Both the position numbers and the translations under genes were made by a program. Shown here one piece after another: positions 9,368 through 41,163 of a stretch of 44,154 bases of DNA. This stretch comes from Oscillatoriales cyanobacterium PMM_0019 (lineage in GTDB: Bacteria; Cyanobacteriota; Cyanobacteriia; Cyanobacteriales; CASBRB01): contig CASBRB010000269.1 of assembly GCA_949127975.1 (NCBI GenBank), positions 1 through 44,154 on the forward strand, in the 5' to 3' direction. A model generated the notes under the pieces. It was not told the origin of the DNA. It worked only from the letters and a program-made list of their open reading frames with translations, and made no database searches. Numbering within the stretch: the stretch's first letter is position 1; the number at the start of each line of letters is the position of its first letter.

Positions 9368-10636
9368 CTAAGAAAGATGCGCAACTCTAACATCAGGGGC
9401 AGGAGTACCAATAGAAATTTGGTTATCCTGTACGCTGAAGGCGATAGCCTGCAAAGCTGCTAATAGATTATTAACAGCGCCTACCCAATCACGGGGATAA
9501 TTAAAACCACATGATGGGCATTTAAAAACCTTGTTTCCCCCAAGCTTGTGGTGAATCTTTCCACAATGGGGACAGGTTTTTGATGTATAAGACTCGTTAA
9601 TACGGATGATTAACACTCCTTGACGCTTGGCAGCCTGTTCTAAATGTTCTGCAAAGCGTCCAAAAGCCCAACTCAACATATTGCGAACTGATTTCTTATT
9701 AATCTTCCTGGTTGCCTTAAGAACCATCTGTGATGTTTCATAAGTAGGAAGAAATACAAGTTTGTAAGTGTTCACAATTAAGTTAGTGGTTTTTCTGTGT
9801 AAATCATCAACCAAGCAACTAATTTTAAACCGCAGCCTACGAATTGCTAGTTGCAGCTTATAACGCAGTCTCTTGTTGGCTTTACCTTTGGCTTTAACTT
9901 TTTGGCTAATTAATTTGTCAAGGTGCAGACATAATCTAGTAATACGCCCAATATCTCCCTTGCCAATCTCCAAAATATTTTCGCCATCGTAACCAGTAAG
10001 AAAACAGCGATTCCCTGGATCAAACGCAATCACTTTATCTGAACCAGTCACAATCACTGATTTATACTGTGGGAAGCAAGCAAACCATTGTCCACGTTGA
10101 TAGACGAGTTCTGTACCATACTCACATTTTTGTGGGACTTCATAACCCCACGCAGTACAATACAACAAGCCTTTCACCTTTGTAGGAAACCAAGTACCAT
10201 TTTTATAAGCATCATTCTTAAACTGAATAACTTGTGATTTATCCCGACAAGAACGAAACCTCATTTTGGATAAACCACGCTCCCCAACAGGTTTAGACAT
10301 CCAAGCTTTTTTAGCTTGCTTACTCGCTTGTTCTGCTTCACAAACCGCCTCTTGTCGGGTTTTCCCTAAACACTTTGTCCTCTGGGTACTGTTGGCAGCA
10401 ATATTCAGATTGTCTCTCAAGTGAGTCACGTTGGGAACTGGTACTAACCCTTGCATAACAAACAGTTCTAACTGCTCGTACCCGTCCTGATAATCCTTCA
10501 ACTTCCGTTTTAATGAAGCGTCTGTGACCACCTGGTGTTCGGTACGTTTTGAGCATACCTTCACGATCCCATCGTCGCTAGAGTCAAAGATGAACTCCTT
10601 TGAAACAGCCTGCCGCCCTTGGTGTGATGTACTCAT
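9368..10636 (-). pseudogene. tnpB: TnpB of an IS607-type element, N-terminus lost in a deletion
   Basis: The 422-codon ORF contains most of a TnpB (Cas12-ancestor, RNA-guided nuclease of IS200/IS605 and IS607 elements). RuvC-I is at AFDPGNRCFLTG and RuvC-II Glu in PTYETSQM. A zinc finger has the pairs CPHC and CPSC, and RuvC-III Asp is in YPRDWVGAVNN. Roughly the first 90 residues are not TnpB: they are the tnpA coding sequence read in another frame. A deletion has therefore fused the front of tnpA to the back of tnpB and removed the TnpB N-terminal domain. The protein is unlikely to work. The 3' end of tnpB, where the guide (omega) RNA normally overlaps, is still present. Confidence 0.82.
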
Positions 10637-13571: not shown

Positions 13572-13712
<141 letters not shown>

Positions 13713-14159
13713 ACATACATTCATTTTCTGCTGCAGACCTCTTATCAATTTCTACCCTTAGATAGATGATTAAGTATATATGGTTTGGGGGGGTTTCCTT
13801 GACTGATTAGCTTATTTGTTGATTTTTGCCACTTGAACCGATAGTTTCAAGCTGGATTCCATAGTGGAATTCAGTTGTCTAATGACTTCCTTCTATTTGA
13901 CGTTTGGCTTGATCCCTACCTGGTTTATAGCAAATCAGTATGGTTGCTCATCATACTCCTAAAGAAATAGGTGGCTTTTACTCGCGCCAATGTATCTTTC
14001 TATAAAGAGATTCTAAAGAAATTATAAAGGAATAATTTGGTTGGGGATCGCTAGAAACTATACAGGTAATTGATTACCAGCTTTCAGACCCTAAAATCGT
14101 ACCAGCTAAATTGAAAGATGAAGACTAAATCAAAACAATACCATCGAAGAGCAATCGCC
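13713..14159. other. Intergenic region upstream of the small four-Cys gene
   Basis: AT-rich spacer with no convincing gene. The only structure I see is a small inverted repeat near 13852-13875 (ATTCCA and TGGAAT arms). An in-frame ATG at 14118 would extend the next gene by 14 residues; I prefer 14160. Confidence 0.5.
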
Positions 14160-21963: not shown

Positions 21964-22117
21964 GCTGCCGGGAAGTCCCGACTACGAACCACAACTCTAT
22001 AAAAGGTTTGTAGTAAGGGCTTTAGCCCTGGATTGGGACTAAAGTCCCGACTACAAACCACAACTCTATAAAAGGTTTGTAGTAAGGGCTTTAGCCCTGG
22101 GAAGGGGACGAGCCGTG

Positions 22118-22210
22118 CCGACTACGAACCACAACTCTATATTAAGATTCAGACTTTTCAAATCCTGCCTCTACAATGTTGGGTTTCGTTCCTCAACCCA
22201 ACCTACAACT
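22118..22210. repeat. 93-bp direct duplication, copy 1
   Basis: Near-identical to 22274-22366 (one A/G difference seen), offset 156 bp. It contains a GTTGGGTT palindromic repeat. Confidence 0.85.
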
Positions 22211-22273
22211 ACGAACCACAATTCTATACAAGGTTTGTAGTAAGGGCTTTAGCCCTGGATTGGGACTAAAGTC

Positions 22274-22366
22274 CCGACTACGAACCACAACTCTATATTA
22301 AGATTCGGACTTTTCAAATCCTGCCTCTACAATGTTGGGTTTCGTTCCTCAACCCAACCTACAACT
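22274..22366. repeat. 93-bp direct duplication, copy 2
   Basis: Second copy of 22118-22210. The near identity implies a recent tandem event. Confidence 0.85.
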
Positions 22367-22370
22367 CAAA

Positions 22371-31703: not shown

Positions 31704-31714
31704 GTTGAACAATT

Positions 31715-31936
31715 CTAGAGGGGCGACGAGGTAGCCTGCTCTAGCTTCGCCCAAGTCTGAGGACCAACAACGCCGTCTGGAGGCATACCTTGTTTTTGCT
31801 GAAACTGTACCACAGCAGTTTCGGTATTGGGGCCAAATATACCATCGCTGGAGCCGAGTTCGTATCCTAGCTTGTTCAACAACTCCTGTAATTTTTTAAC
31901 TTCTTTTCCAGCATCCCCCTGTTGCAAAGCCTTCAT
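31715..31936 (-). CDS. Small peptidoglycan-binding-like protein
   Basis: 73 residues, essentially one PG_binding_1 domain: GDAGKEVKKLQELLNKLGY, DGIFGPNTETAVVQFQQKQG and PPDGVVGPQTWAKLE. No signal peptide, so it would be cytoplasmic unless exported otherwise. The same domain occurs twice in the 34124-34843 protein. It converges with the exporter gene, 11 bp between stops. Confidence 0.88.
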   Translation of the reverse strand: MKALQQGDAGKEVKKLQELLNKLGYELGSSDGIFGPNTETAVVQFQQKQGMPPDGVVGPQTWAKLEQATSSPL

Positions 31937-31981
31937 TATTCTTCTCCCTTAGTGCTTCTCAGGATAAATTTTAACTGCTCT

Positions 31982-32034: not shown

Positions 32035-32205
32035 AATAAGGTAATACAGAGATAGTTCTACAGGTTAGCTTGACTATCAAGGTGTTTCAGTATTCGAGGC
32101 TCTCGATCGCCAACCAAATGATGGTAGAGTGAGGTTGGGGTGGTTTGGGTTTTGCGGCTACTGCGTGCAATATCAGTCCCCTTGTCGTGTTACCAGGTAG
32201 CCACA

Positions 32206-32245
32206 AATTGGAGTAAATTGGAGTAAATCGGTATAAATCGGAGTC
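32206..32245. repeat. Array of 10-bp direct repeats
   Basis: Four consecutive units of the type GGAGTAAATT, GGAGTAAATC, GGTATAAATC, GGAGTC with strict 10-bp period. The array lies about 27 bp upstream of a TTGACA box. Confidence 0.8.
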
Positions 32246-32271
32246 ATGGTACTACTCAGATGACCGAAGTG

Positions 32272-32301
32272 TTGACATTCCTACTTAAGGAGTTGTAATA
32301 T
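32272..32301 (+). promoter_or_regulatory. Promoter-like TTGACA-18-TAATAT
   Basis: A perfect -35 box (32272-32277), an 18-bp spacer and TAATAT (32296-32301); an overlapping TATAAT is at 32299-32304 with a 21-bp spacer. It points into sequence with no ORF, so it may drive a non-coding RNA. Confidence 0.45.
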
Positions 32302-32580
32302 AATTGGCAGATCGAGCCAGCAAGCGTGGGCCTAGAGATGTCGCTGACAAATAACAGCAAGCGTTAAAGTTTAGGAAGTTGGCTTGAAATTTTCCCCAAA
32401 AAGCCTAGATTGGTAACTTTCTAGGTGTACTATTTGGCTGGTTCAGATTGTACCGGGCTTGGGTAGCCACACCCATTGCGTTCCTACTCCACTACGCTCC
32501 AACTGGTTGAGTCTACGACTCACAAGAGCTGGTGGATGCGCTTACAGAGGAGCCGAAGAAAGTGAACGGTGATTTCGGAT

Positions 32581-32624
32581 TTATTACGTTTTATTACGTT
32601 TTACTCCGTTTTACCGACTACTCC
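32581..32624. repeat. Array of 10-bp repeats in opposite orientation
   Basis: TTATTACGTT, TTATTACGTT, TTACTCCGTT, TTACCGACTA, CTCC. Read on the other strand the third unit contains CGGAGTAAAA, close to the left array units. Each array is next to a copy of TCCCCTTGTC (32177-32186 and 32622-32631). Confidence 0.75.
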
Positions 32625-32760
32625 CCTTGTCCCGTCGTGCTATATCAAAATGTCCCGCTCAATTGCTGGTAGCAGGTTTTGCGGGGATGGTTTTTTTTGG
32701 CTATTTTTTCTCGCTTACAGAGCTGTATCCTTTATCAGATAAGGCTTTGAGCGAATTATC

Positions 32761-34123: not shown

Positions 34124-34843
34124 CTAGCGCAGCAGAGCGTTCCAAGTAGCTGAGCCGACTATACCATCAGGATTGAGCTTAAAGTTTTCTTGAGCTGATT
34201 TTACGGCTGCTTGTGTTTCTGAGCCAAAGACGCCATCCACCTCTCCTTTGAAAAAGCTAAGGGCGCGTAGGCGCTGTTGCAAGCCGATAACAGCGGAGCC
34301 TGACATACCTAATCGCAGTATAGGAAGATTGACGGATGGGGGCGGGGAATTGTCCGGATTAGGATTGGAAATAATTTTTTGAGAAGCAGTTGTGGCAGTG
34401 CGGCTATCGGTGGTAGACGGAACAGTAAAAATAGTCACTGAGTTATTTGAGTCAGATGAGCCTGTTGTAGTTGATGGGGCTGGGGGGAACAGGTTTCTCC
34501 AAGTATCTGAACCAACGACGCCATCAGGATTTAAACCAGCAGCTTGCTGAAATTTGGCGACAGCTTGGGCGGTGGTGTCTCCATAAAAGCCATCTACAGC
34601 ATCAGTGTAAAACCCTAAAAGTTTGAGCGCCGCTTGCAGTTCAGACACTTCGACGCCTTTGCTACCGAGCTGAAGAGTTGGTCGATAGAATCTTGCTGAG
34701 GCTGTCACCTGAGCAGTATTTTCAGTATCATTGGCGACGTCTAATGATGCTGCCGCGACGGGCGAGTAGCAGAGGGCAATACTTAGTAAACTGCTAAACC
34801 AAACCATTAACCTAGCCCTGCTTTTTGTCAGGCTGTCAACCAT
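34124..34843 (-). CDS. Secreted protein with two peptidoglycan-binding domains
   Basis: 239 residues. A signal peptide or anchor (ARLMVWFSSLLSIALCYSPVAAA) is followed by PG_binding_1 domain 1 (LQLGSKGVEVSELQAALKLL...GLNPDGVVGSDTWRNL). A Ser/Thr-rich linker leads to domain 2 (LRLGMSGSAVIGLQQRLRAL...KLNPDGIVGSATWNALL). No catalytic domain is fused, so it is a wall-binding adaptor or structural protein. It likely resides in the periplasm. Confidence 0.92.
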   Translation of the reverse strand: MVDSLTKSRARLMVWFSSLLSIALCYSPVAAASLDVANDTENTAQVTASARFYRPTLQLGSKGVEVSELQAALKLLGFYTDAVDGFYGDTTAQAVAKFQQAAGLNPDGVVGSDTWRNLFPPAPSTTTGSSDSNNSVTIFTVPSTTDSRTATTASQKIISNPNPDNSPPPSVNLPILRLGMSGSAVIGLQQRLRALSFFKGEVDGVFGSETQAAVKSAQENFKLNPDGIVGSATWNALLR

Positions 34844-37861: not shown

Positions 37862-38333
37862 TTTCCATCAAACGCGATTTTATGTATCTTAGCGCTTTAT
37901 GAACAAAAAATCCGAATTTTTTGATACAAAATATCCAAAGTGATGGCTATTGCTGAGGAAAATCCAAACCTTTCTGCTTTTTGTCAGTTAAAAATCCCCA
38001 AGTCTACTAAACTTGGGGAATTAATTTTCGTTAGGCTCACCGCAACGCCGTTTTACCTCAGTTTATGACCTGGATAAACCAGGTGGGTACCTTCGCTCTG
38101 GCTTAAAGTTTCCGGGTACTGTGCCCGGTTTACTGCTGCGAGAGCTTTTTTGGTTCCCTTTTTCTTTAGGCATAGATCAAAAAACGTTATTGGCAGTCAC
38201 CAACGTCGTAGTGGAACCTCTCTATTTACTATAGCGCTTAAATTTGTGTTTGTGTACGAAAGGAGATTGGGATAGGAAGAATATTGAAAACTCACGCATT
38301 TGGGGCGCTCTAGGTACCGCCCCTAGGGAAAAC
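37862..38333. other. Gap holding a hairpin/terminator and a possible TnpB 3' relic
   Basis: 472 bp with no intact gene. On the minus strand a frame ends GTKKALAAVNRAQYPETLSQ... and stops near 38060, followed by a TCCCCAAGT/ACTTGGGGA hairpin. This order (coding tail, about 40 bp, hairpin) resembles the right end of an IS200/IS605-type element. Confidence 0.4.
37995..38019 (-). terminator. TCCCCAAGT hairpin with T-run on the minus strand
   Basis: A perfect 9-bp stem with a 7-nt loop. On the minus strand it is followed by TTTTTAAC, so it can end purK transcription; on the plus strand ATTAATTTT follows. Confidence 0.6.
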
Positions 38334-40924: not shown

Positions 40925-41163
40925 TAGTTCGCGAGCGATGGACTATCACAACCAACTTTTTCGTTCGTAGTGAGGGCTTTAGCCCTTACTGTTCGTAGTG
41001 AGGGCTTTAGCCCTTACTATTCGTAGGATTGTAGGTTGGGTTGAGGAACGAAACCCAACATATTAGTTGAAAAACCTCAGGTTCCTTTCTGCTAAAGCTT
41101 TCAGGCAATTGATTAGTAAAACTTATCACGCCTAAGTACGGGAGAGCCATTTAGTTAGTATTA
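40925..41163. other. Repeats upstream of the hemagglutinin relic
   Basis: Two exact 28-bp units (40963-40990 and 40991-41018, start GTTCGTAGTGAGGGCTTTAG) plus a partial third, then a GTTGGGTT palindrome at 41030-41059 with the extended tail shared with 36388-36511. Confidence 0.85.

Follow-up and report, generated by a model that had tools for sequence, protein, structure and literature searches.

A probable miniature IS607-family element with a predicted TnpB-type guide RNA and its own promoter in an Oscillatoriales cyanobacterium

IS607, IS1535, ISC1926 and ISXfa1 have helically phased subterminal repeats, lack terminal inverted repeats and target duplications, and move by exchange of a dinucleotide. 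Autonomous members of the IS607 family encode a serine-recombinase transposase, TnpA, followed by TnpB and its right-end RNA (reRNA). The core dinucleotide of IS607 is GG (PMC6188088), a sequence described for the members that have been studied and not as a requirement for all. In IS1535, left-end motifs a to d are helically phased and lie about 20 to 60 bp from the left terminus, and right-end motifs lie 10 to 28 bp from the junction (PMC6188088). The ISXfa1 reRNA consists of stem-loops and a required pseudoknot of guide-proximal nucleotides, with a fixed flanking base in the scaffold, and the target-adjacent motif (TAM) of ISXfa1, GGG, contains the GG core (PMC10711439). Here we describe a 440-bp segment of contig CASBRB010000269.1 from Oscillatoriales cyanobacterium PMM_0019 (44,154 nucleotides, analyzed in full and called the window below). 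Its ends, copies and relatives make it very probably a miniature IS607-family derivative that has neither tnpA nor tnpB.

Ends, copies and insertion site of the element

A first-pass annotation, made from the sequence of the window, had pointed out two oppositely oriented arrays of 10-bp repeats on either side of a noncoding segment with a promoter. Tandem Repeats Finder located both arrays as claimed, the left one at 32205-32244 (period 10, 4.0 copies) and the right one at 32580-32613 (period 10, 3.4 copies). Their lag-10 identity (25/30 on the left, 22/24 on the right) was the highest anywhere in the window. The two arrays are 74 to 79% complementary across 28 to 38 nucleotides and thus represent one motif in opposite orientations. 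The interior is free of genes, as described: no open reading frame (ORF) of at least 80 amino acids was found between 31703 and 32859.

The window genome is a draft of 5.7 Mb in 512 contigs, with three left ends stopping at contig edges, and the copy counts given here are lower bounds. It holds at least six full copies of the segment, the window copy included, and about ten partial ones. A genome search with the window segment as the query returned four further copies matching query positions 105-544 or 119-544, a fifth (C123) in two pieces, and many partial matches, all of which stopped at the same points. Five further full copies had 80 to 87% identity, and a sixth, C123, was more diverged. 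When aligned, the copies defined a common unit of 410 to 461 bp that starts with GTCRTNTYAC, ends with GACTACTC and lies between unrelated flanks. Reduced forms were also seen. A 93-bp minimal copy on C20 (L043:2350-2442, reverse strand) joins about 17 bp of the left end to about 76 bp of the right end. Solo right ends on C207, C236, C273, C447 and C506 of G000 (L059 and L110 to L113) retain only the final 18 to 29 bp (..ACTCCGATTTACTGACTACTC), with unrelated DNA inside.

The first-pass annotation had named response-regulator binding as one explanation of the arrays. An immobile regulatory region surrounded by arrays for a response regulator or another transcription factor would indeed have 10-bp phased direct repeats beside a promoter. 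We give this reading hardly any credence. Copies of the complete 440-bp unit at unrelated sites refute it; in addition, the same arrays bound IS607-type tnpA and tnpB in other genera, and one relative has an empty site.

Profile searches with both ends found wider-spaced pairs at C46 (2067 bp), C255 (1804 bp) and C310 (2324 bp) and at C400 of G041, a genome of another genus. One large TnpB-like ORF was present in each of C46 (441 amino acids), C255 (448 amino acids) and G041 (438 amino acids), and the tnpA genes of C46 and C310, behind matching ends, were decayed. Relatives of this tnpB at 49 to 63% identity occurred in Xenococcaceae, Moorena, Rhizonema, Calothrix, Dulcicalothrix, Scytonematopsis and an Oscillatoriales metagenome-assembled genome (MAG). 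No relatives turned up in viral contigs. At loci L117, L120 and L121, tnpB was preceded by a gene for a serine recombinase of 189 to 190 amino acids with an N-terminal helix-turn-helix, the arrangement known from IS607 TnpA, and both lay between ends with the same motif. The TnpA proteins of L117 and L120 matched the Pfam family Resolvase (PF00239; E value, 1e-17 to 1e-18). An IS200/IS605 origin was dropped when this serine-recombinase tnpA turned up between matching ends. The window copy contains no such gene. Like a miniature insertion sequence, it is short, multicopy and transposase-less and shares its ends with an autonomous element, whose transposase would mobilize it in trans.

The insertion site could be read from the L117 element, which is nested within the tnpA of a second IS607 element (L117:3178-5997). 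Uninterrupted homologues (L143) supply the empty site, AAGCCCGTTG-TC-CTCTATGC, for comparison with the occupied site in L117, AAGCCCACTG-TC-[element]-TC-CTCTATGC. The bases beside TC are ..GTTG in the L143 empty site and ..ACTG in the L117 occupied site. Since only TC is shared, the core is a 2-bp TC and the target is not duplicated, in line with the action of a serine transposase. The flanks of 12 copies likewise showed an identical 2-bp core without a duplication. All left junctions examined had G immediately to the left of TC. A or T preceded this G in nearly every copy, the one exception being L178. On the strength of the TC core and the L117 empty site, we set the limits of the window element as follows.

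32184-32623: window element including both cores, 440 bp
32187-32621, forward strand: element body between the TC cores, matched end to end in six full copies with unrelated flanks; limits from the empty site of a relative
32184-32186, forward strand: left-junction GTC, comprising the core dinucleotide TC and the invariant flank base G, at the left junction of every copy compared
32185-32186: left core TC
32622-32623, forward strand: right core TC, from the empty site L143 compared with L117; all copies end in ..CTACTC or ..TTACTC
32205-32244, forward strand: left subterminal array, 4 x 10 bp (AAATYGGAGT), predicted TnpA binding sites, 19 to 58 bp from the left terminus
32580-32613, reverse strand: right subterminal array, 3.4 x 10 bp, inverted motif, predicted TnpA binding sites, 9 to 42 bp from the right terminus

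These multiple, helically phased subterminal motifs are typical of IS607-type serine transposase ends, in keeping with the transposase-binding option of the first-pass annotation. By analogy with IS1535, to whose arrays they are a close positional match, the window arrays would be bound by TnpA. Unlike IS607 family members, the window copy lacks both genes, has a TC core instead of the GG of IS607 and IS1535, and has more than one motif in each array (4 and 3.4).

A 10-mer, TCCCCTTGTC, had been reported just outside each array. It is present at both places (32177-32186 and 32622-32631) as a direct and not an inverted repeat, and it is not a terminal repeat: the pair consists of the 2-bp TC at which recombination takes place, together with flank sequence that is coincident or tandem. 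The re-closed window site would read TCCCCTTG-TC-CCCTTGTC, a short tandem repeat. A tandem TCCCCTTGTCCCCTTG already present in the target would explain TCCCCTTGTC, but the rest of the genome yielded no such sequence when up to one mismatch was allowed. A 10-bp target-site duplication was rejected, as none of the other copies has such a duplication and the empty site shares TC alone. CCCTT flanking the window copy had suggested ends like those of Tn7 or CRISPR-associated transposons (TGT..ACA, 5-bp duplication), which the other copies ruled out.

The structured RNA and its promoter

All full copies, whether or not they carry tnpB, share a conserved stretch of 170 to 190 nucleotides upstream of the right array, and in the tnpB-bearing copies this RNA segment lies downstream of tnpB. 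The RNA-encoding right part of the window element spans 32400-32623. An alignment of 16 sequences gave a consensus of 39 pairs in which 95.2% of cells were paired, compared with 82.8% after shuffling; 72 cells had changed on both sides (20.2 after shuffling), and such changes affected 19 of the 39 pairs. When the structures were slid by 1 to 3 columns as a control, pairing fell to 37 to 46%. A predicted pseudoknot, GGGTAG/CTACTC, was complete in 16 of 17 sequences, with a single mismatch in the remaining one, and covaried to GGGTAA/TTACTC in L124 and L167. Folded alone, the window RNA is not unusually stable (z = -1.03); the support for the structure is comparative.

The window RNA scored 165 bits against the resulting covariance model. 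The model found 10 copies in the window genome and, among 386 cyanobacterial genomes sampled, had matches in 4, a number that includes the window genome. No Rfam family, RAGATH-18 included, matched at the gathering threshold or at E values up to 10. A further locus, L166 (G050:C176:1983-2163), gave a weak match to the model (31 bits) downstream of a distant TnpB (41% identity) and probably represents a sister family. The first-pass annotation had suggested either a noncoding RNA locus or a nonautonomous element, and both descriptions fit: there are many copies in the genome itself, and a conserved structured RNA lies inside the element. The absence of a second copy or of conservation would have counted against it; instead we found more full copies, and the RNA in several other cyanobacterial genera.

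This RNA resembles the reRNAs of IS607 TnpB proteins (ISXfa1, PMC10711439; RAGATH-18-derived, PMC11061315), which reach from downstream of tnpB to the right end, combine stem-loops with a pseudoknot, include the flanking dinucleotide in the scaffold and use the flank as guide. Here too, a structure backed by covariation lies between tnpB and the right end, with a guide-proximal pseudoknot that includes the flanking core. It is highly likely that the window element carries a TnpB-type reRNA scaffold. When the plan of the ISXfa1 reRNA is applied to the window, the guide runs from 32624 onward. The parts of the predicted RNA and its promoter are listed below.

32272-32301, forward strand: sigma-70-like promoter, TTGACA-18-TAATAT, directed toward the RNA and the right end
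32400-32568, forward strand: structured core of the predicted reRNA scaffold, with P1 at 32403-32426, P2 at 32427-32437/32443-32453 and a further domain from about 32480
32461-32466, forward strand: GGGTAG, predicted 5' pseudoknot strand, pairing with the right-terminal hexamer
32618-32623, forward strand: CTACTC, predicted 3' pseudoknot strand, the last scaffold bases before the guide, including the core TC
32624-32643, forward strand: host flank, putative reRNA guide of about 20 nucleotides, directly 3' of the scaffold and different in every copy, placed by reference to published IS607 reRNAs

If expressed, the reRNA would bind TnpB with the flank as its guide. From the bases at the left junctions, and by analogy with ISXfa1, we infer (A/T)GTC as the TAM of the family, as against AGGAG, GAGGG and GGG in known IS607 reRNA systems. 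Unlike the known IS607 reRNAs, this RNA has no Rfam model and is also carried without tnpB, under its own promoter.

The promoter reported by the first-pass annotation is present, with TTGACA at 32272-32277 and TAATAT at 32296-32301. Five of the six full mini-copies have a promoter at the same place with 10 to 12 of the 12 consensus bases, C476 and C471 having an exact TTGACA-18-TATAAT, and it is also kept in the partial copies C243, C103, C300 and C488. The tnpB-bearing copies lack that segment, and no promoter was found there.

The element is also comparable to miniature inverted-repeat transposable elements (MITEs) and to the palindrome-associated transposable elements (PATEs) of IS200/IS605, in that it is a short multicopy unit with parental ends and no transposase. 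HEARO units without an ORF, which belong to IscB, keep the guide RNA without the nuclease. Unlike MITEs, PATEs and HEARO, the window element has opposed repeat arrays in place of terminal inverted repeats or hairpins, would depend on serine-recombinase rather than DDE or HUH chemistry, and contains a promoter.

The cognate TnpB and competing explanations

The cognate ORF encodes a divergent TnpB that matched the NCBIfam model guided_TnpB at an E value of 2.5e-13, below the curated cutoff. A profile built from an alignment that included two Firmicutes TnpBs matched Cas12f and a TnpB in the PDB. In this TnpB family (C255/C46/L117), the RuvC-I aspartate D217 and the RuvC-II glutamate E314 are invariant, as is a second aspartate in RuvC-I (D219, DxD). 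The ratio of nonsynonymous to synonymous substitution rates (dN/dS) was 0.07 to 0.14, and so the protein is maintained under purifying selection. An AlphaFold2 model was too poor to test for compensation within the active site (mean predicted local distance difference test score, 55.7) and was not used. The window also contains a second, canonical TnpB of 422 amino acids at 9371-10636 (reverse strand), with a Cas12f1-like TNB zinc ribbon (E value, 1e-19); a broken IS607-type tnpA match with two stops, at 10371-10631, overlaps its start.

Overall, we consider it likely that the window holds a miniature IS607 element with TnpA-type ends, insertion at TC, a parental reRNA and use of that RNA in trans. 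Several observations weigh against this reading. An intact cognate tnpA was not found in the 512-contig draft genome, and the intact TnpAs that it does contain are only 42 to 49% identical. Among the other IS607 TnpAs of the genome, those of C420 and C160, the two whose upstream DNA was read, have no matching arrays there and were rejected as mobilizers. The cognate TnpB does not have the D-E-D catalytic triad of RuvC, the RuvC-III aspartate being replaced by glycine (HSGLNAARN) in all nine aligned family members, L042, L040 and L117 included; the Bacillus and Enterococcus TnpBs have HADLNA at that site. Because this residue is missing, the standard cut-to-retain role may not apply. Finally, among the mini-copies of the window genome other than C123, helix changes kept pairing in five cases and broke it in six, against an expectation of about 0.39. 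Selection on the RNA among these mini-copies is thus not demonstrated, the result being no better than chance.

The last result is what would be expected of a plain IS607 miniature whose RNA is a functionless relic of the parental 3' region and in which only the ends matter, for TnpA acting in trans. The 93-bp C20 copy and the solo right ends without RNA also fit this account, since they imply that ends alone can move or persist, and the tip of the right end would be needed for TnpA in any case. Set against it, no part of the mini-copies is better conserved than the RNA segment (mean pairwise identity of 0.927, compared with 0.857 in the spacer), and as far as is known this segment is not needed for end function. 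Moreover, the promoter is conserved only in the copies without tnpB, and the window copy retains 37 of the 39 RNA pairs. An independent reRNA element without tnpB, found in G061, the Xenococcaceae MAG of L116, bears on the same point. It is present as two copies of 416 bp, L178 and L180. Between them, 10 of 207 positions differ to the left of the RNA and 30 of 164 inside it, 21 of these 30 being paired. Seven pairs had changed on both sides and were kept, five had changed on one side and were kept, and two were broken. The double compensatory changes speak against a relic, and the pattern argues that base pairing is maintained in the tnpB-less elements of G061, although whole helices might also have entered L178 and L180 by gene conversion from other copies. 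On balance, the plain miniature falls somewhat short of an even chance.

A second alternative starts from the TnpB. As in TldR, Cas12m and Cas12k, the cognate TnpB has lost a RuvC catalytic residue and is nevertheless conserved. The locus might then be an exapted, TldR-like one in which a nuclease-deficient TnpB and its RNA regulate genes instead of maintaining a transposon, consistent with the loss of the RuvC-III aspartate from every family member at low dN/dS and with the independent promoter of the RNA. In TldR systems, the guides are conserved and correspond to a host promoter. The guides here differ from copy to copy and simply equal the flank, and the elements still look mobile, with many insertion sites, so we judge this explanation improbable. 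Unlike TldR, Cas12m and Cas12k, the cognate TnpB also keeps the RuvC-I aspartate and the RuvC-II glutamate, has the extra invariant DxD aspartate, and has tnpA alongside it in autonomous IS607 copies. From its residues, the TnpB family is possibly a nuclease-deficient or rearranged clade within IS607 elements.

Elsewhere in the window, a heptanucleotide array (CAGGAGT, 20 copies, 95% match) at 13572-13713 resembles cyanobacterial short tandem repeats. A compound tandem repeat with 69-bp and 156-bp periods lies at 21972-22370, and a similar 28-bp unit recurs at 40963-41026. A short ORF of about 70 codons at 31711-31940 (reverse strand; MKALQQGDAGKEVKKLQELLNKLGYELG...) resembles a single peptidoglycan-binding domain, and a longer peptidoglycan-binding protein is encoded at 34127-34843 (reverse strand). 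A 6S RNA (Rfam RF00013, 94.8 bits) is located at 38033-38217 (reverse strand).

Proposed mechanism and significance

In the mechanism that we propose for the miniature IS607 element, TnpA from an autonomous copy would bind both arrays, pair the ends and excise the element as a circle, which it would then integrate by strand exchange at TC. From the internal promoter, transcription would continue past the right end into the host flank, giving an RNA of about 320 nucleotides from which an reRNA with that flank as its guide would arise. A TnpB encoded elsewhere (C255 or C46) would take up this reRNA; whether TnpB does use the RNA of the mini-element in trans we regard as evenly balanced. The complex would recognize (A/T)GTC followed by the flank sequence, a combination present solely in the re-closed donor site. 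With the third RuvC aspartate missing from TnpB, the complex would be more likely to bind or mark the empty site than to cut it, unless the active site is rearranged.

Taken further, the element would be a two-level parasite, with its own guide and promoter, that uses borrowed TnpA to move and a borrowed, nuclease-deficient TnpB to recognize its empty donor site under RNA guidance, and RNA-guided binding without cutting would aid the IS607 element through retention, exclusion or target marking. We hold this extension to be rather unlikely, and a TnpB role of this kind was not found in the open-access literature searched.

Miniature insertion sequences and IS607 reRNAs are known kinds of element. 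New in the open-access literature searched is the combination of an orphan reRNA with its own promoter, a TC core, the lack of an Rfam family and a TnpB without the RuvC-III aspartate. The analysis connects short, opposed 10-bp arrays with the way in which the ends of IS607 transposons are built, and it describes a mini-element that keeps a predicted guide RNA and its own promoter without the nuclease. If these RNAs do load TnpB in trans, each mini-copy would add a guide to the cell's repertoire, and surveillance of its donor site, without encoding a protein, and the family would offer a testable model for the separation of guide RNAs from their nuclease. A TnpB family without the third RuvC aspartate, conserved across cyanobacteria, would allow the idea that TnpB can serve a transposon by binding instead of cutting to be tested.
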